From Bacteroidales bacterium Barb4 (GTDB taxonomy: Bacteria > Bacteroidota > Bacteroidia > Bacteroidales > Tannerellaceae), in the NCBI GenBank assembly GCA_001657575.1, contig LBCX01000002.1:1-41745 (forward strand): 41,745 nucleotides of DNA. Direction: 5' to 3'. The translations under genes and the position numbers were made by a program. How positions within the stretch are numbered: the stretch's first letter is position 1; each line of letters starts with the position of its first letter. Shown here piece by piece: positions 11,349 to 33,238 of this stretch. Under the pieces are notes generated by a model that was not told the origin of the DNA, made no database searches, and saw nothing but the letters and a program-made list of their open reading frames with translations.

Positions 11349-11770
11349 TCATTGCCGACCATATATAGGTATTGTCATTTCAAATGAAATTGGTATTCAG
11401 TAGTCAAATACTATTTTTTAGTACTCAACTACACTTTTGTCAGATGAACCCAAATTGATAAAACAAGCCTGCCCTTATTCTTTCATTTACGAAAAGAACA
11501 GACTTGTCACTAAATAGGCTATTTTTTAGCCTGTGTTTCTTCATATTCACATCTTCGTGAACAATACGAATGAGGCTTGGTAGCAAGTGATTCCGTGTAA
11601 GGTTTTCCGCACCACTTACATGTATGACGACTACTAAGGTTCATAAAACTAATATATTTAATTTTCTTACTCTAACGGCTTCGTAGGTATTGCCTCATTT
11701 TTAAAATGGTTTCTGAACTCCATTTGGTATTGCTAATTAAGCATATTTAGTGTGCGGTTTTAGCAATGCC
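11349..11770. mobile_element. Putative 422-bp insertion with 9-bp target duplication
   Basis: CAACATATT occurs at 11340-11348 and again at 11771-11779, exactly bordering the foreign segment inside REPIN copy D. The inner ends are weakly inverted (left TCATTGCC, right GCAATGCC). The segment is AT-rich, carries the 41-aa zinc-ribbon gene and no transposase, so it would be a non-autonomous (MITE-like) element. The absence of long terminal inverted repeats is the main weakness. Confidence 0.55.
11519..11644 (-). CDS. Micro zinc-ribbon protein (41 aa)
   Basis: The product starts MNLSSRHTCKWCGKPYTESL and has a CxxC (C9, C12) and CxxxC (C28, C32) pair separated by 15 residues, the spacing of a treble-clef or zinc-ribbon knuckle (CKWCGKPY...SYCSRRC). 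Its TAG stop is inside an AGGCTA/TAGCCT hairpin that could end transcription. It lies within the putative insertion in REPIN copy D. Stand-alone proteins of this size with YCSxxC often act as nucleic-acid-binding or protein-binding adaptors. The function here is unknown. Confidence 0.6.
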   Translation of the reverse strand: MNLSSRHTCKWCGKPYTESLATKPHSYCSRRCEYEETQAKK

Positions 11771-25028: not shown

Positions 25029-25982
25029 TTATTTGAACGTATCGGCAGGAACGCCTTTCACGCCGGGCTTGCATTGGAATAGGCTACCACTCAGTGGATA
25101 CTCAGCCAATTTTTCGGGAGAAAGCCATGCACGGGCGGTGGTGATATAGAGAATATCCAGATTTTCCCCACCAAAAGCGCAGGAAGCAACGTTGGGAGCG
25201 GGAACTTCCACTTTGGCAAGCAACTCCCCGCTGTGCGGATTGTAGCAATAGACACCGTATCCGCCCCATTGCGCCACCCACAGATTGCCGTCGGCATCCT
25301 TTGTCATACCATCGGGAGCACCGATACCCTGCGCCAGCGTAACGGCGACACCGTCATAAGTGACGCTCCCCGTTTCAGAATCGTAGCGATAACGGGCAAC
25401 CTTTCCGGTCGGCGTATCATTATAATACATATATTTTTTGTCGTCAGACCAGACAAGACCATTGGAAGTAGTGATGCCGTCCAGACGGGCGGTCACATTC
25501 CCGTCGGTGTCCACCGTATATAATCCGGCAGAACCGCGGGGCGCACCCATCGTCATCGTCCCTATCCAAAGCCTTCCATCGGGGTCGCACTTCCCGTCGT
25601 TGCAACGCAACGTCCCGCCGGCATCATCTATCGGGGCAACCGAACTCCGGCTCCCATCTTCCACATTCAAACATATGATTTCATTTTGAAGGGCAACGAC
25701 CACCGTCTCCTTCGTTTCGGGAACAACGGTCGTCACCATCCGGTCGAATTTCCACGAGCGGCATTCTTTCGCCTGCGGCAAATATTCGTACAATGTCTGC
25801 CCTTCAATATCAACCCAAAAGAGGGACTTCCTCTCCGGATGCCAGATAGAACCTTCTCCCGTAACGGCTTCCGCCTGATACAAAAGTTCCGCTTGAAAAG
25901 TTTGTGTCTGCGCTGTCGTTTGAGAGACTGCCGTCGCACACAGCAGGCAAACGGCGATAACCCTTTTCATTTTCTTGTTCAT
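25029..25982 (-). CDS. SMP-30/gluconolactonase family protein, secreted
   Basis: This 317-aa beta-propeller protein has an N-terminal signal peptide (KRVIAVCLLCATAVSQTTAQ), so it is probably periplasmic. SMP-30 motifs are GEGSIWHPERKSLFWVDIEG (metal-binding glutamate), GGTLRCNDGKCDPDGRLWIG (Asn/Asp), TSNGLVWSDDKKYMYYNDT and GIGAPDGMTKDADGNLWVAQ. The family hydrolyses sugar lactones. The upstream region is a 21-bp tandem array, so no conventional promoter is visible close to the start. Confidence 0.88.
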   Translation of the reverse strand: MNKKMKRVIAVCLLCATAVSQTTAQTQTFQAELLYQAEAVTGEGSIWHPERKSLFWVDIEGQTLYEYLPQAKECRSWKFDRMVTTVVPETKETVVVALQNEIICLNVEDGSRSSVAPIDDAGGTLRCNDGKCDPDGRLWIGTMTMGAPRGSAGLYTVDTDGNVTARLDGITTSNGLVWSDDKKYMYYNDTPTGKVARYRYDSETGSVTYDGVAVTLAQGIGAPDGMTKDADGNLWVAQWGGYGVYCYNPHSGELLAKVEVPAPNVASCAFGGENLDILYITTARAWLSPEKLAEYPLSGSLFQCKPGVKGVPADTFK

Positions 25983-26018
25983 TTGTGTGCTATTTTGAGG
26001 TTACAATCGGACGGAAAC

Positions 26019-26207
26019 CTTCTGCCTGCCGACGGAGACTTTCCGCCCACCGGCGAAGACCCTCTGCCCACTGATGGAGACCTTCCGTCCACCGACGGAG
26101 ACTTTCCGTCTAACGGCGGAGACCCTTCGCCCACCGACGGAGACCTTCCGTCCACCGACGGAGAGTCTTCGCCCAACGACGGAAGGCTTCCGTCCAACGG
26201 CGGAAGC
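26019..26207. repeat. 21-bp tandem palindromic array, 9 units
   Basis: Nine units of exactly 21 bp begin at 26019 and run to 26207. The commonest form is CTTCCGTCCACCGACGGAG plus AC. Each unit has an inner CCGTC....GACGG-type stem; several stems keep pairing although the bases differ between units. It separates the SMP-30 gene start from the next gene on the same strand. Because 21 is a multiple of three, heptapeptide-repeat frames run through it on both strands, but none has a convincing start or context. Confidence 0.88.
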
Positions 26208-26251
26208 CTTCTATCAAATGATATAACTATATAACAATCAACGGTTAATCA

Positions 26252-26703: not shown

Positions 26704-26733
26704 TTTGCCGTATCAAAAATGGATTTACCTTTG
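26704..26733 (+). promoter_or_regulatory. Promoter of the leu leader and leuA
   Basis: TTTG (26704-26707) and TACCTTTG (26726-26733) are 18 bp apart, a near-ideal -33/-7 pair for the Bacteroidetes sigma factor. The leader peptide ATG is 31 bp further on. Confidence 0.75.
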
Positions 26734-26764
26734 CGCCCGAAATAATCATCAGGCAATAAAGCTC

Positions 26765-26836
26765 ATGATACGGAACCTGGCAAACAGTCTTTCCCTCTCC
26801 CTTATTCTTCTACTTCTCGAAAAAGGAAGAAAGTGA
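26765..26836 (+). CDS. leuL: Leucine-rich leader peptide of the leu attenuator (23 aa)
   Basis: The short frame begins MIRNLANSLSLSLI and then has four consecutive leucines (codons 15-18), ending EKGRK. Eight of 23 residues are leucine: positions 5, 9, 11, 13 and 15-18. It lies between a good promoter and an intrinsic terminator, and leuA follows. Stalling of the ribosome on the leucine run when Leu-tRNA is short would leave the bases at the stop codon free for antiterminator pairing. The gene name is used by analogy with enterobacterial leuL. Confidence 0.85.
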   Translation: MIRNLANSLSLSLILLLLEKGRK

Positions 26837-26909
26837 GACCGTATGCCGCAGGTTAAAAGGTATAGCAAACGAAAGCCCCTCTCACTTCTTTGTGAGCGGG
26901 GCTTTTTTT
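26831..26909 (+). promoter_or_regulatory. leu attenuator: antiterminator and intrinsic terminator
   Basis: Terminator: AGCCCCTCTCAC (26874-26885), loop TTCTTT, GTGAGCGGGGCT (26892-26903, including one T:C mismatch), then a seven-T run. Alternative pairing: AAGTGAGA at 26831-26838, overlapping the leader peptide stop, is an exact complement of TCTCACTT at 26880-26887, the inner part of the terminator 5' arm and loop. The two structures exclude each other. A ribosome at the leader stop would mask the first segment and favour termination. Confidence 0.85.
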
Positions 26910-27011: not shown

Positions 27012-28514
27012 ATGTCAGACAACAAATTGTTTATTTTCGACACTACCTTGCGCGACGGGGAGCAGGTGCCCGGTTGCCAGCTGAATACGGTAGAAAAGAT
27101 TGAGGTTGCCAGAGCTTTGGAAAGCTTGGGCGTGGATGTGATTGAGGCGGGCTTTCCCGTTTCCAGTCCGGGCGATTTCAAAAGTGTGGTGGAGATTTCC
27201 AAGGCGGTTACATGGCCTGCCATCTGCGCCCTGACGCGGGCGGTGGAAAAGGATATTGACGTAGCCGCCGAAGCCTTGAAGTTTGCCAAGAAAGGGCGCA
27301 TCCATACGGGCATAGGCACGTCCGATTCTCACATTAAATATAAGTTCAATTCCAACCGGGAAGAGATTTTGGAACGCGCCGTTGCCGCCACGAAATACGC
27401 CAAGAAGTATGTGGAAGATGTGGAGTTTTACTGCGAAGATGCCGGGCGGACGGACAACGAATATCTGGCGCGTGTCACGGAAGCGGTCATCAAAGCCGGT
27501 GCCACGGTCGTAAACATCCCCGACACTACCGGCTACTGCTTGCCCGATGAATACGGGGCGAAGATAAAGTACCTCATGGAGCACGTGGACGGCATCCATA
27601 ATGCCATACTCTCCACCCACTGCCACAATGATTTGGGCATGGCGACGGCGAACACCGTGCAGGGCGTGCTGAACGGTGCCCGTCAGGTGGAAGTGACCAT
27701 CAACGGCATCGGTGAACGCGCGGGAAACACTTCTCTCGAAGAAGTCGCCATGATATTTCACAGCCACAAAGAGCAGAATATTATCACCAACATCAACACG
27801 ACAAAAATATACAGCCTCAGCCGCATGGTCTCCGCCCTGATGAACATGCCGGTGCAGCCTAACAAAGCTATTGTCGGGCGCAATGCCTTCGCCCACTCCT
27901 CCGGCATCCATCAGGACGGCGTATTGAAGAACCGCGAGAGCTACGAAATCATCGACCCCAAGGACGTGGGCATTGATGACAATTCCATCGTCCTCACCGC
28001 CCGCAGCGGACGCGCTGCCCTCAAACACCGCCTCCACGTCTTGGGCGTTGAACTGGAACAGGACAAATTAGACAAAGCCTACAACGAGTTCCTGAAGCTC
28101 GCCGACCGCAAAAAGGACATCAACGACGACGACATCCTCATGCTCGTCGGCAAAGACCGCACGGCCATGCACCGCATCAAGCTGGAATATCTGCAAGTGA
28201 CCAGCGGCATCGGTCTGCAATCCGTTGCCAGCGTCTGCCTCGACCTCTCCGGCGTCAAACGCTACGAAGCGGCCTCAGGCAACGGTCCTGTGGACGCTGC
28301 CATTAAAGCTGTCAAAAAGGCTATCAGTAACAGCGACATGACTATTCAGGAGTTCCTCATCCAAGCCATCAACAAGGGGAGTGATGACACAGGCAAGGTG
28401 CACATGCAGGTGGACTACAAGGGGAACATTTACTACGGCTTCTCTGCCAATACGGATATTATTGCGGCTTCGGCGGAGGCGTTTGTGGATGCGATTAATA
28501 AGTTTATAAATTGA
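27012..28514 (+). CDS. leuA: 2-isopropylmalate synthase
   Basis: This 500-aa enzyme condenses acetyl-CoA with 2-oxoisovalerate, the first committed step of leucine synthesis. The TIM-barrel start [17 protein letters not shown] contains the catalytic R14-D15; metal-binding histidines are in [19 protein letters not shown], and the linker is [17 protein letters not shown]. The C-terminal allosteric domain (about residues 385-500), where leucine binds, ends [10 protein letters not shown]. Length is normal. It lies behind the leader-peptide attenuator. leuC is not next: two accessory modules totalling 3.3 kb follow. Confidence 0.96.
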
Positions 28515-28986: not shown

Positions 28987-29529
28987 ATGGCAAAATATAC
29001 GGCAAGTCAAATAGCCGATTGGATTATATTACGCTACACGCCGGATGCCGGCGATGCAATCACGCCTTTGAAACTTCAAAAGCTGTTGTATTATTGTCAG
29101 GCATGGCATTATACCGTTTATGATGAACCTTTGTTTGACGACAAGATTGAAGCGTGGGCGCGCGGTCCTGTTATTCCTTCGCAATTTGAGCGATTCAGTT
29201 ATTTGGAAATAGGAGACAACATTCTAAATAACTGGCCGGAGTTTGCTCCCGATATTGTTTTAGAGAAATATACAGAAAATTTATTATATGAAGTAATGAG
29301 CGTTTACGGACAGCATACGGCTTATTATTTGGAACGGCTTGTCCAATCCGAAAAGCCGTGGAAAGAAACAAGGGGAGATTTGGAATTTCCTTTGGCATGT
29401 GACAAAGAGATACCATTGCCGCTGATGAAAGCATATTATTCATCCATTAGTAAAACAAAAAATGGAAAAAATAAAAAGGATAAAACCGCAGAGCAAGTAC
29501 GTACCCGACGATTGGAAAGAGTCTTTTGA
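28987..29529 (+). CDS. panA: Panacea-domain (DUF4065, SocA-like) antitoxin
   Basis: The 180-aa protein has the Panacea domain in its first 150 residues: ASQIADWIILRY, ITPLKLQKLLYYCQAWHYTV and FDDKIEAWARGPVIPSQFER. This domain is a widespread antitoxin module that neutralises unrelated toxins (PanAT systems) and is also found in the adaptor antitoxin SocA. The partner gene begins 68 bp before its stop, a long overlap. The lysine-rich tail (SKTKNGKNKKDKTAEQVRTR) is encoded in the overlap region. The symbol follows the published PanAT naming for the domain. Confidence 0.8.
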   Translation: MAKYTASQIADWIILRYTPDAGDAITPLKLQKLLYYCQAWHYTVYDEPLFDDKIEAWARGPVIPSQFERFSYLEIGDNILNNWPEFAPDIVLEKYTENLLYEVMSVYGQHTAYYLERLVQSEKPWKETRGDLEFPLACDKEIPLPLMKAYYSSISKTKNGKNKKDKTAEQVRTRRLERVF

Positions 29530-29890
29530 GCAAAACGGCGATGATAAATTTATATTTCTTTCCATAAAACATTTGCAATCGAATTTTGAATGTTTTTCCG
29601 ATTGGACAAAACAGGAAATGACAAAGTTTTGGGATTTTAGCAAAAGATTGCATCAAATGACATGGAACGATGTTTACAGAACGGGCGGTAAAAGCGGAAA
29701 TAAAACAGGATTGGCATATACCGTGATAGCAAAAGCCAATTACTGTTCAATACCTTTTATCGACAACCTTTCAAAATACATCACCTTTTTTGAATTAAGA
29801 ATTGACGACAAGATAAGGGTGCATGGGTACAGGGAAAATTCAATATTCCATTTATGCCTGTTAGATCGTGAACATAAAATTTGCAAATAA
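29462..29890 (+). CDS. Candidate toxin partner of the Panacea protein
   Basis: This 142-aa soluble protein overlaps panA by 68 bp and is therefore its presumed partner toxin. I do not recognise the family with certainty. A helical N-terminal part (LSIKHLQSNFECFSDWTKQE, TKFWDFSKRLHQMTWNDVYR) is followed by a beta-rich end, RIDDKIRVHGYRENSIFHLC then LLDREHKIC. The GYRxxxxFHLCLLDxxH pattern recalls the C-terminal strand region of small RelE-like toxins, where H may be catalytic. Its stop lies inside the duplicated leuC start sequence. Confidence 0.6.
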   Translation: MEKIKRIKPQSKYVPDDWKESFEQNGDDKFIFLSIKHLQSNFECFSDWTKQEMTKFWDFSKRLHQMTWNDVYRTGGKSGNKTGLAYTVIAKANYCSIPFIDNLSKYITFFELRIDDKIRVHGYRENSIFHLCLLDREHKICK

Positions 29891-29923
29891 ATAAAACAAT
29901 GAGCAAAACATTATTCGACAAAA
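29885..29923 (+). pseudogene. Duplicated leuC 5' end
   Basis: 39 bp are identical to 31815-31853, which cover the leuC leader and its first codons (ATGAGCAAAACATTATTC and on). The copy includes ATG 29899 and then switches at 29924 to leuA-like sequence. It is a recombination scar, not a gene. Confidence 0.88.
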
Positions 29924-29933
29924 ACATATGTAA

Positions 29934-30038
29934 GTGGACTATGAGGGAAATGTCTATTACAACTTCTCCGTTAATACAGATATTATTTCCACTTCGATGG
30001 AGGCATTTGTAGATGTGATTAATAAGTTTATAAATTAA
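29934..30038 (+). pseudogene. Diverged duplicate of the leuA 3' end
   Basis: The 34 codons plus stop (VDYEGNVYYNFSVNTDI ... EAFVDVINKFIN) align without gaps to the last 34 codons of leuA (28410-28514; [17 protein letters not shown] ...). About three quarters of residues match. The nucleotide differences show it came from a related but different leuA, not from a recent local duplication. Homology extends a few bases upstream (CATATG versus CACATG). Confidence 0.9.
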
Positions 30039-30052
30039 AAAGTTAAAAGGAT

Positions 30053-31183
30053 ATGTTAAAATCATTGTATGTAAAGAATTACCGAAATCTAAAAGACTTC
30101 AAAATAAAGAGGTTGGAACAGGTTAATCTGATTACCGGCATGAATAATACGGGGAAATCATCTGTTTTGGAGGCTGTTTCTATTTATGCGGCTAAGGGAG
30201 ATATAGAACATATCTTCCAACTATTAAAAAGAAGGGGAGAATGTTATGAGCTATCTGATAAAGGAAGTTCTGCTGAAACAAACATAAAATCATTGTCGTC
30301 TTTATTTACCAATCGGGATTTAAAATTTGACAACTCTAATTCCATATCAATAGGAGAATATGAAACAGATCTTTTTGGAGGAAGTATACTTCTTGATGAA
30401 ACCATGAGTTTAAGGTTTGTAAAATATGCAGATGAACGACAGGATGATGGACAGGGGAGAACGTTTAGAAGAAAGATTCTTCAGGCAGAAGATTTAGAGG
30501 CACAGAATGAAGATTATAAAATAGGATTTGAAATAAAAAAAGGAAGAAACTCATCTTTATTCTTACCTGAGCGAGAAAGATATTTTCCATACGCTTTTAG
30601 GCATAAGATAGAAAACTTAAACCAATTTCAATATGTTAATACAGGAGGTATTGACAGAGGCATAAATGGGATGTTGTTTGATAATATTACTTTAACTGAA
30701 AAAGAATCTTTTGTCATTGAATCTCTTAAAATTATTGAGCCTTCAACAGAAAGAATCGCTTTCGTAGAAAAAAATTCCAAAGAAAGAACTGCAGTAATAA
30801 AGTTGTCTGACAATCCGGATATTCTTCCCTTGCTAAGTATGGGAGATGGTATGAATCGAATACTGACTATTATTCTTGCTATGGTAAATGCAAGTGATGG
30901 CTATCTTCTAATTGACGAATTTGAAAACGGATTACACTATAGCGTTCAAAAGAAACTATGGAAACTTATCTTTAAATTAGCACAAAAATTAAATGTACAA
31001 GTTTTTGCCACCACCCATAGCAATGATTGCATCTACGGGTTCGGGAACACACTGAACGATCCGGAAAATTCAGTTACAGGTAAATTGATACGCCTTGACA
31101 ATGAAGAGGGAATAGTTGAAGAAGTCGAATTTTCAGTAGATGAATTAGAAACAGCTGAAAAACATAATATTGAAATCCGGTAA
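30053..31183 (+). CDS. AAA15/OLD-like ABC-type ATPase, leu module 2
   Basis: This 376-aa SMC/ABC-type ATPase has the N-terminal LKSLYVKNYRNLKDFKIK, Walker A GMNNTGKSS (residues 29-37), ABC signature-like LLSMGDGMNRIL (about 261-272), Walker B YLLIDEFENG (D288, E289) and the H-loop FATTHSND (H322). It lacks a fused nuclease; a separate Toprim gene starts 2 bp after its stop. This ATPase plus Toprim layout is that of split OLD-family defence systems such as PARIS. It is AT-rich and lies directly behind the duplicated leuA tail. Confidence 0.85.
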   Translation: MLKSLYVKNYRNLKDFKIKRLEQVNLITGMNNTGKSSVLEAVSIYAAKGDIEHIFQLLKRRGECYELSDKGSSAETNIKSLSSLFTNRDLKFDNSNSISIGEYETDLFGGSILLDETMSLRFVKYADERQDDGQGRTFRRKILQAEDLEAQNEDYKIGFEIKKGRNSSLFLPERERYFPYAFRHKIENLNQFQYVNTGGIDRGINGMLFDNITLTEKESFVIESLKIIEPSTERIAFVEKNSKERTAVIKLSDNPDILPLLSMGDGMNRILTIILAMVNASDGYLLIDEFENGLHYSVQKKLWKLIFKLAQKLNVQVFATTHSNDCIYGFGNTLNDPENSVTGKLIRLDNEEGIVEEVEFSVDELETAEKHNIEIR

Positions 31184-31185
31184 CT

Positions 31186-31815
31186 ATGTCGAAAGAAGAA
31201 AGCAAAAAGAACTTGTTGTTGGTTGAAGGGAATAATGACCGGCATGTGATTTGGGCTTTGTGTGAAAAGTTCGAGTTGCCAAACACTTTTGAAGTTATTG
31301 ATTCCGGAGGTATTAACGAACTGAAAAAGAGATTAAACATCGAACTTAAATCAAAGGCAGATGCAATCGGTATAATTATTGATGCAGATATGGATTTAAA
31401 TGCCCGATGGGATTCAATAAAAGAGATATTGACATCACATCATTTTATTCTTCCCGGTACCTTCCCCAAAGACGGCTTAATAGAAACTAATGTTTCAAAG
31501 AAAAAGACAGTGGGAGTATGGATAATGCCAGATAATAATTCAAACGGAATGCTTGAAGATTTCATATCCTTCCTCATCCCCAAAGAAGATCAGCTGTTGC
31601 CCGCCGTTCATTCCACCTTAAGTGATATAGAAAATAAGCAATTAAGCAAATATCTCCCTATCCACAAAGCAAAAGCCACCATCCATACATGGCTTGCATG
31701 GCAGGAATCCCCCGGCACCCCGATGGGTCAAAGTATCACCAAAAGATATTTGACCACCGATGAAGCTACCTGTATGAAACTAGTTGATTGGATGAGGAAA
31801 TTATTTAACAACTGA
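31186..31815 (+). CDS. DUF3226-like Toprim domain protein
   Basis: The 209-aa protein has a Toprim fold: acidic motif [12 protein letters not shown] (E14), GIIIDADMD (D66, D68, D70) and the [10 protein letters not shown] segment. The C-terminal [20 protein letters not shown] with GQSI is characteristic of DUF3226-type proteins. Toprim proteins of this kind are metal-dependent nucleases. The 2-bp gap to the ATPase gene implies a complex of the two. A role in phage defence is inferred from this architecture and from the insertion context; no activity is shown. Confidence 0.82.
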
Positions 31816-31828
31816 AATAAATAAAACA

Positions 31829-33238
31829 ATGAGCAAAACATTATTCGACAAAATCTGGGAAAAGCATATCGTAGATACGCTGCCCGACGGAACGATACAA
31901 CTGTATATCGACCGTCTCTACTGCCACGAAGTAACCAGTCCGCAAGCCTTCGCCGGTCTCCGCGAACGCGGATTGCGCCCTTTCCGTCCCGCACAAGTGA
32001 CATGTATCCCCGACCACAACATCCCGACGTTGCATCAAGACCAGCCTATCCAAGACCCCGTCTCAAAAAAGCAGGTGGACACGCTGGAAAAGAACGCCAA
32101 AGACTTCGCCCTTGACTATTACGGCTTACTGCACCCCCGCAACGGCATCATCCACGTCGTCGGTCCCGAAATAGGACTGACTCAGCCGGGCATGACCATC
32201 GTCTGCGGCGATTCCCACACATCCACCCACGGTGCCATGGGAGCCGTTGCCTTCGGCATCGGTACCAGCGAAGTGGAAATGACCCTCGCCACCCAGTGCA
32301 TCATGCAACGCAAGCCGAAAACCATGCGCATCACTGTTGATGGCAGCCTCCGTCCCGGCGTAACCGCCAAAGACATCGCCCTCTACATCATCAGCCGAAT
32401 GACCACCGGCGGCGCAACAGGCTATTTCGTTGAATACGCCGGTGAAGCCATCCGCAACACCACGATGGAAGATCGCCTCACCATCTGCAACCTCTCCATT
32501 GAAATGGGTGCCCGCGGCGGCATGATTGCTCCCGACCAAGTCACTTTCGACTATCTCAACGGTCGCGAATTTGCCCCCCATGGCGAAGCCCGCGAAAAGA
32601 AACTCGCCGAATGGCGCGAACTCTACACCGACCCCGATGCCGCCTTTGACAAGGAAATTCTCTTCCACGCTGAAGACATCGAACCGATGATCACCTATGG
32701 CACCAACCCCGGCATGGGCATGGGCATCCGCGAAAACATCCCCGCCCTCAAAAGCATCGACCCCGCCGGTCGCACCTCTTATCAAAAATCATTGGATTAC
32801 ATGGGCTTTGCCGCCGGCGAACCGATATTGGGCAAGCCCGTCGATTACGTCTTCCTCGGCAGTTGCACCAACGGTCGCATTGAAGACTTCCGTGCCTTTG
32901 CATCCCTCGTCAAAGGTCGCAAAAAATCACCCCGCATAACCGTATGGCTCGTCCCCGGCAGCTGGCAGGTGGAACGCGAAATCCGTGCCGAAGGCCTTGA
33001 TACAGTCCTCACCGCCGCCGGCTTTGAACTCCGTCAGCCCGGCTGCTCCGCCTGCCTCGCCATGAACGACGACAAAATCCCCTCCGGCAAATACGCCGTC
33101 TCCACTTCCAATCGCAACTTTGAAGGTCGCCAAGGTCCCGGTGCACGCACCATTCTCGCCGGTCCACTCGTAGCCGCCGCCGCCGCTGTTACCGGACAGA
33201 TAACCGATCCACGGGAATTGATAGTAGAATCTTTTTAA
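31829..33238 (+). CDS. leuC: 3-isopropylmalate dehydratase large subunit
   Basis: This 469-aa aconitase-family enzyme isomerises 2- to 3-isopropylmalate with the small subunit LeuD. It has [20 protein letters not shown] near residue 115 and the three [4Fe-4S]-binding cysteines in [10 protein letters not shown] and [13 protein letters not shown]. It ends [11 protein letters not shown]. Length is normal. leuD and leuB, which usually follow, are absent from the window; instead a nuclease-like gene begins 8 bp later. The start is supported by the identical duplicated start upstream (29899). Confidence 0.96.

Follow-up and report, generated by a model that had tools for sequence, protein, structure and literature searches.

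A leuA leader in Bacteroidales that appears to act as a ribosome-mediated transcription attenuator

The stretch preceding leuA, a leucine-synthesis gene of the gut bacterium Bacteroidales bacterium Barb4, appears from its sequence to turn the gene on only when ribosomes lack leucine. It lies within the window (the whole stretch of DNA analysed, 41,745 nt of contig LBCX01000002.1) and is most probably, at a probability of about 0.93, a ribosome-mediated (leader-peptide) transcription attenuator of leuA. The mechanism is ordinary, the anatomy is complete, the support from comparison is very strong and the family is absent from Rfam. All parts of the element are present in the sequence and conserved among relatives, and its three helices covary, giving strong comparative evidence that classical ribosome-mediated attenuation governs the synthesis of branched-chain amino acids in a phylum where Shine-Dalgarno initiation is rare. 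If this reading is true, the ribosome must closely trail the RNA polymerase on these leaders, making transcription-translation coupling in Bacteroidota directly testable.

Anatomy of the leader

All features of the element, like leuA and leuC downstream of it, lie on the forward strand. The Bacteroides-type (-33/-7) promoter (26704-26733) consists of TTTG (26704-26707) and TACCTTTG (26726-26733) with a gap of 18 nt, and transcription probably starts near 26740. Matches to the two-box pattern in the window alone are at chance level (three vs. 1.6 expected). Since the match is not significant by itself, its support is taken from the relatives, which conserve both originally predicted boxes: the full pattern lies 5' of 61 of 83 leaders (0.6% of random windows), and TAnnTTTG is found within 100 nt 5' of the leader start in 76 of the 83 (4.6% of random windows).

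Between the promoter and leuA (27012-28514; 2-isopropylmalate synthase, NCBIfam TIGR00973 and NF002086 above cut-off) lies a leader peptide ORF of 23 codons and a stop codon (26765-26836), MIRNLANSLSLSLILLLLEKGRK, which abounds in codons for the amino acid made by the pathway and has homologous Leu/Ile-rich ORFs in relatives. As originally predicted, it contains eight Leu codons, four of them consecutive. This run, CTT CTA CTT CTC (Leu15-Leu18, 26807-26818), is assigned as the control codons from the sequence and the alignment. The leader also has two Ile codons (Ile2 and Ile14), the second immediately preceding the control run, and contains no Trp codons. No recognised ribosome-binding site was found at the window leader, which is nevertheless presumed to be translated.

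The leader RNA contains the strands of three alternative helices. Strand 1 (26797-26811) is the 5' side of a protector hairpin. Strand 2 (26825-26838) holds AAGTGAGA (26831-26838) and the leader stop codon (26834-26836), and can pair with either strand 1 or strand 3. Strand 3, TCTCACTTCTTT (26880-26891), forms part of the 5' side and the loop of the terminator and contains TCTCACTT (26880-26887), the exact complement of AAGTGAGA. The intrinsic terminator (3:4, 26871-26909) precedes leuA and comprises a hairpin at 26871-26906 (-24 kcal/mol) and a run of seven T at 26903-26909. Folding showed that the protector hairpin pairs 26797-26811 with 26825-26837 through 12 base pairs, placing strand 1 over the control codons and strand 2 over the stop codon, an arrangement familiar from textbook attenuators. 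The protector completes the classical set of 1:2, 2:3 and 3:4 pairings, in which the 2:3 antiterminator and the terminator are mutually exclusive. The antiterminator segment at the stop codon, its exact complement and the terminator with seven T had been predicted and were found; the attenuator had also been called complete, and the listed parts are indeed present, but the protector hairpin was missing from that list.

In the proposed mechanism, RNA polymerase would set out from about 26740, trailed by a ribosome translating the leader. When charged leucine tRNA is scarce, the ribosome would stall on Leu15-Leu18 and mask strand 1, leaving the AAGTGAGA core free; strand 2 would then pair with strand 3 as it emerges, no terminator would form and leuA would be transcribed. 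When leucine is ample, the ribosome would reach the stop codon and mask strand 2, and the 3:4 terminator would end transcription at the seven T. With no ribosome, the 1:2 hairpin would form, followed by termination. Stalling, the efficiency of termination and the response to leucine, with read-through tied to charging of the cognate tRNA, are predicted from this arrangement. The placement of the stop codon inside strand 2 is a matter of geometry; from the usual size of a ribosome footprint, a ribosome that has reached it would cover the AAGTGAGA core. In folds with strand 1 blocked, transcripts truncated at 26888-26900 adopt the antiterminator, and the terminator prevails only once strand 4 has been made (26904).

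Conservation and covariation among relatives

The leuA loci were taken from named genomes and further Bacteroidales genomes; the best leuA match, at 91% protein identity, comes from a strain of Parabacteroides distasonis. Most near Bacteroidales relatives carry a homologous leader before leuA. Among the 97 first-round loci with closer leuA relatives (L005-L106), 71 have a terminator, 64 have a Leu/Ile-rich leader in addition and 55 have all three parts. A sizeable fraction of leuA genes, though a minority, lack the leader, among them most of those sampled from distant Bacteroidales, indicating that the element is not universal. The three-part combination was defined as a terminator of -12 kcal/mol or below within 140 nt of the gene, a complement to its 5' side and an overlapping Leu/Ile-rich ORF. 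This combination was found in 61 of 133 real leuA upstream regions and in one of 532 dinucleotide shuffles; shuffling the window region alone produced it in none of 300 cases. The core GGAAGTGAG encodes Gly-Ser-Glu in leaders of the Bacteroides type and Lys followed by a stop in those of the Parabacteroides type; this use of different frames indicates that it is conserved as RNA, not as peptide.

Covariation was analysed in 71 leuA upstream regions aligned with MAFFT without structure information; the regions had been picked by the terminator, not by the antiterminator. In the antiterminator, 86.8% of the cells are paired and seven of ten pairs show changes on both sides; the corresponding values for the terminator are 91.4% and ten of 13 pairs. 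The covariation score of each helix was reached by none of 500 shuffles, a control that does not remove relatedness, whereas the slid and swapped controls carry the same relatedness as the real sequences. When every pair of columns was scanned blind, 192:225, 127:201, 124:207 and 201:216 ranked as the top four. The presence of both 127:201 (antiterminator) and 201:216 (terminator) among them indicates that one nucleotide (column 201) changes with two alternative partners.

The register of the protector stem shifts in the alignment, and this stem was therefore examined by a register-independent comparison of duplex energies between the strands of the same sequence and strands swapped between sequences. 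Own strands were favoured for all three helices across the 71 sequences, with z values of -10.4 (1:2), -12.1 (2:3) and -15.4 (3:4), vs. -1.1, 0.3 and 0.3 for three control pairings. Thus, compensatory changes, which had been proposed as a check on the two original stems, are seen in both and in the protector stem as well. The covariation of the three helices and the conserved Leu-rich frame support the original prediction of a ribosome-stalling attenuator. Conservation of base pairs and codons across many Bacteroidales makes it very probable that this phylum, too, uses a mechanism known chiefly from Proteobacteria.

The same comparisons bear on two other readings of the region. A plain, unregulated terminator might end a short RNA or insulate leuA, the Leu-rich frame being incidental; intrinsic terminators are common, and a lucky frame could arise in a single genome. 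However, such a terminator needs neither the strand 2-3 nor the strand 1-2 covariation, both of which are seen, and the conserved Leu/Ile-rich frame and the single positive shuffle also speak against this reading, which is highly improbable. A structured RNA before a biosynthetic gene could also be a metabolite riboswitch, a T-box or a protein-controlled leader in which the ORF is mere coincidence. Strands 2 and 3 are separated by a spacer with little conservation of length or sequence, unlike a ligand-binding core. Moreover, searches of the leader against Rfam returned no family at the gathering or the permissive threshold, neither the T-box nor Bacteroid-trp (RF01692) matched in either search, and the proteobacterial Leu leader gave no match at the gathering score and none at E values up to 5. 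A leader of this kind is accordingly just as improbable as a plain terminator.

Operon content and control codons

In most relatives the operon order is leuA-leuC-leuD-cimA-like-leuB. The best NCBIfam match of the cimA-like protein is the Leptospira citramalate synthase NF042433 (628 bits, under the 950-bit cut-off), and the protein scores 388 bits against PDB 3ble vs. 157 for the best isopropylmalate synthase; judged by these similarities, the gene is likely, though not proven, to act in isoleucine synthesis. The window genome has its cimA-like gene on a separate contig (C284), and leuC (31829-33238; NCBIfam TIGR00170 above cut-off) is the next leucine gene downstream of leuA.

The Leu/Ile richness of the leaders agrees with the products of the operons. 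Most leaders of relatives are rich in both Ile and Leu, with means of 4.6 Ile and 4.5 Leu codons where the cimA-like gene is in the operon. The Ile share is 0.50 with the cimA-like gene downstream (n = 73) vs. about 0.2 (0.23-0.25) without it (n = 13-14; p about 1e-4). In a paired comparison, each of 12 cimA-less leaders has an Ile share below that of its nearest cimA-bearing relative (Wilcoxon p = 0.0005, with two doubtful loci dropped), although several of the 12 share families or a nearest relative and the effective number is nearer seven. This comparison omits L009/L010 (an inverted duplicated contig) and L211 (a weak leader). L218 and L219 keep many Ile codons despite having no cimA downstream. 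The Leu-rich frame expected of relatives by the original prediction is therefore kept, mostly in a mixed Ile and Leu form, and the Leu-dominated form goes with operons lacking the citramalate-synthase-like gene. The window leader is of this cimA-less, Leu-dominated type.

These differences suggest that the Bacteroidales leuA attenuator family probably retunes its sensing, with control codons following the gene content of the operon: leaders of leuACD-cimA-leuB operons would sense both amino acids through about equal numbers of Ile and Leu codons, and those that have lost cimA, as in the window, would become Leu-dominated. Such a link would preserve a record of how nature re-tunes a sensor. The window leader might instead sense isoleucine and leucine jointly, as a branched-chain attenuator like those of most relatives. 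The mixed composition of leaders in cimA-bearing operons is compatible with joint sensing, as is the retention of Ile2 and of Ile14 adjoining the control run. However, the window leader has eight Leu codons vs. two Ile, its genome carries the cimA-like gene on a different contig, and relatives whose operon lacks cimA are likewise Leu-dominated, making joint sensing in the window unlikely and leaving a leucine-sensing attenuator as the preferred reading. Codon choice in the leaders is also distinctive. CTA makes up 33% of Leu codons in leaders vs. 2% in leuA of the same loci, and ATT 76% of Ile codons vs. 42% in leuA genes. Because CTA lies partly inside strand 1, pairing constraint and codon rarity are not separable, and the CTA enrichment may partly reflect the pairing constraint on strand 1.

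The window differs from most loci in the spacing of its leucine genes. The distance from the leuA start to the leuC start is 4818 nt vs. a median of 1531 nt in 143 loci with leuC downstream, the two genes being set apart by a 3.3-kb insertion. Between them, 28987-29890 encodes a SocA/Panacea-domain antitoxin-like protein followed by an overlapping MAG6450-family protein (a weak PADLOC match to NsnC), and 30053-31815 encodes an AAA_15 ATPase and a DUF3226 protein, whose best PADLOC match is the candidate defence system PDC-M38A/B. PARIS was considered for the insertion and rejected, since PADLOC prefers the candidate PDC-M38. The PDC-M38-like pair follows the attenuator and may share a transcript with leuA. 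A remnant at 29885-30047 fuses the first codons of leuC (MSKTLFDK) to a leuA 3' end with 78% DNA identity to that of the resident gene, which suggests repeated insertion at the leuA-leuC junction. Insertions of 1-2 kb between leuA and leuC are also present at five other loci (L105, L056, L029, L230 and L051), which may mark the junction as a hot spot for insertion.

Known attenuators and other Bacteroidota leaders

The leuL attenuator of E. coli and Salmonella shares with the window element a promoter, a short leader rich in Leu, with four Leu codons in a row and the rare CTA, mutually exclusive 1:2, 2:3 and 3:4 pairings, and an intrinsic terminator before leuA. It differs in having no detectable sequence relation (as judged by Rfam), whereas the element described here has a Bacteroides-type promoter, relatives in which Ile codons are mostly as common as Leu codons, and the order leuA-leuC-leuD-cimA-leuB. 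A comparative prediction of amino-acid attenuators by Vitreschak et al. in 2004 reportedly included Bacteroidetes/Chlorobi. Bacteroid-trp RNA is, as its name implies, a leader of the trp operon that carries Trp codons and a terminator, and thus concerns trp rather than leu. It was described as a cis-regulatory candidate in Bacteroidetes (PMC2864571). In Flavobacterium psychrophilum, of the same phylum, leader-peptide attenuation of amino-acid operons was proposed from transcript data, and the accessible text of that report gives no leader structures or covariation for leu (PMC9723704). An attenuator in this phylum is therefore less surprising than the original prediction held, since several amino-acid operons have peptide attenuators and the mechanism had been suspected before (RF01692, PMC2864571; PMC9723704). 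In the literature searched, with most subscription journals outside it, no earlier description of a leu leader from Bacteroidetes came up. The ilvBNC/BCAA attenuators of Corynebacterium glutamicum and Staphylococcus aureus, according to the accessible parts of the reports, also sense branched-chain amino acids through a leader peptide and alternative hairpins, but belong to other phyla and differ in genes and sequences (PMC11857589, PMC5794164).

A covariance model of the leuA leader (R1), which can be used for annotating leuA leaders not covered by Rfam, was used to search Bacteroidota, and matches were kept only if inspection showed an amino-acid leader. Phylum-wide matches below about 40 bits were mostly generic terminators, some on both strands of one hairpin, and were rejected. 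The matches kept from other Bacteroidota, attenuator-like leaders whose codons fit the amino acid concerned, include ilvD leaders with HIIRVVVV or IILLIIVIII (L181-L183, L185, L186 and L193), aspartokinase leaders with TTTTISTTTTI or TTIITIITT (L189, L191 and L192) and trpE leaders with FWWF or WAWFW (L188 and L196); an ilvE leader with IITVVIIT (L198) is probably also a related attenuator. In the genome of the window, the leuA leader is the only confident match. The next, at 24 bits, has no convincing leader; inspection of ilvD, aspartokinase and hisG found no similar leader, and a search for the trpE N-domain gave no match.

Upstream of hisG in the same genome (L270, about 470-620) there is an array of GGTATGGCATCCCCATACG-type palindromic repeats. 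In the window, imperfect repeats of about 21 nt (CCGACGGAGACCTTCCGTCC-like) occupy 26000-26215, between the gene at 25029-25982 and a divergent ORF, and the minus strand at 11660-11728 carries a match to the Rfam DUF805 RNA (RF03081) at 51.8 bits, slightly above the gathering score.
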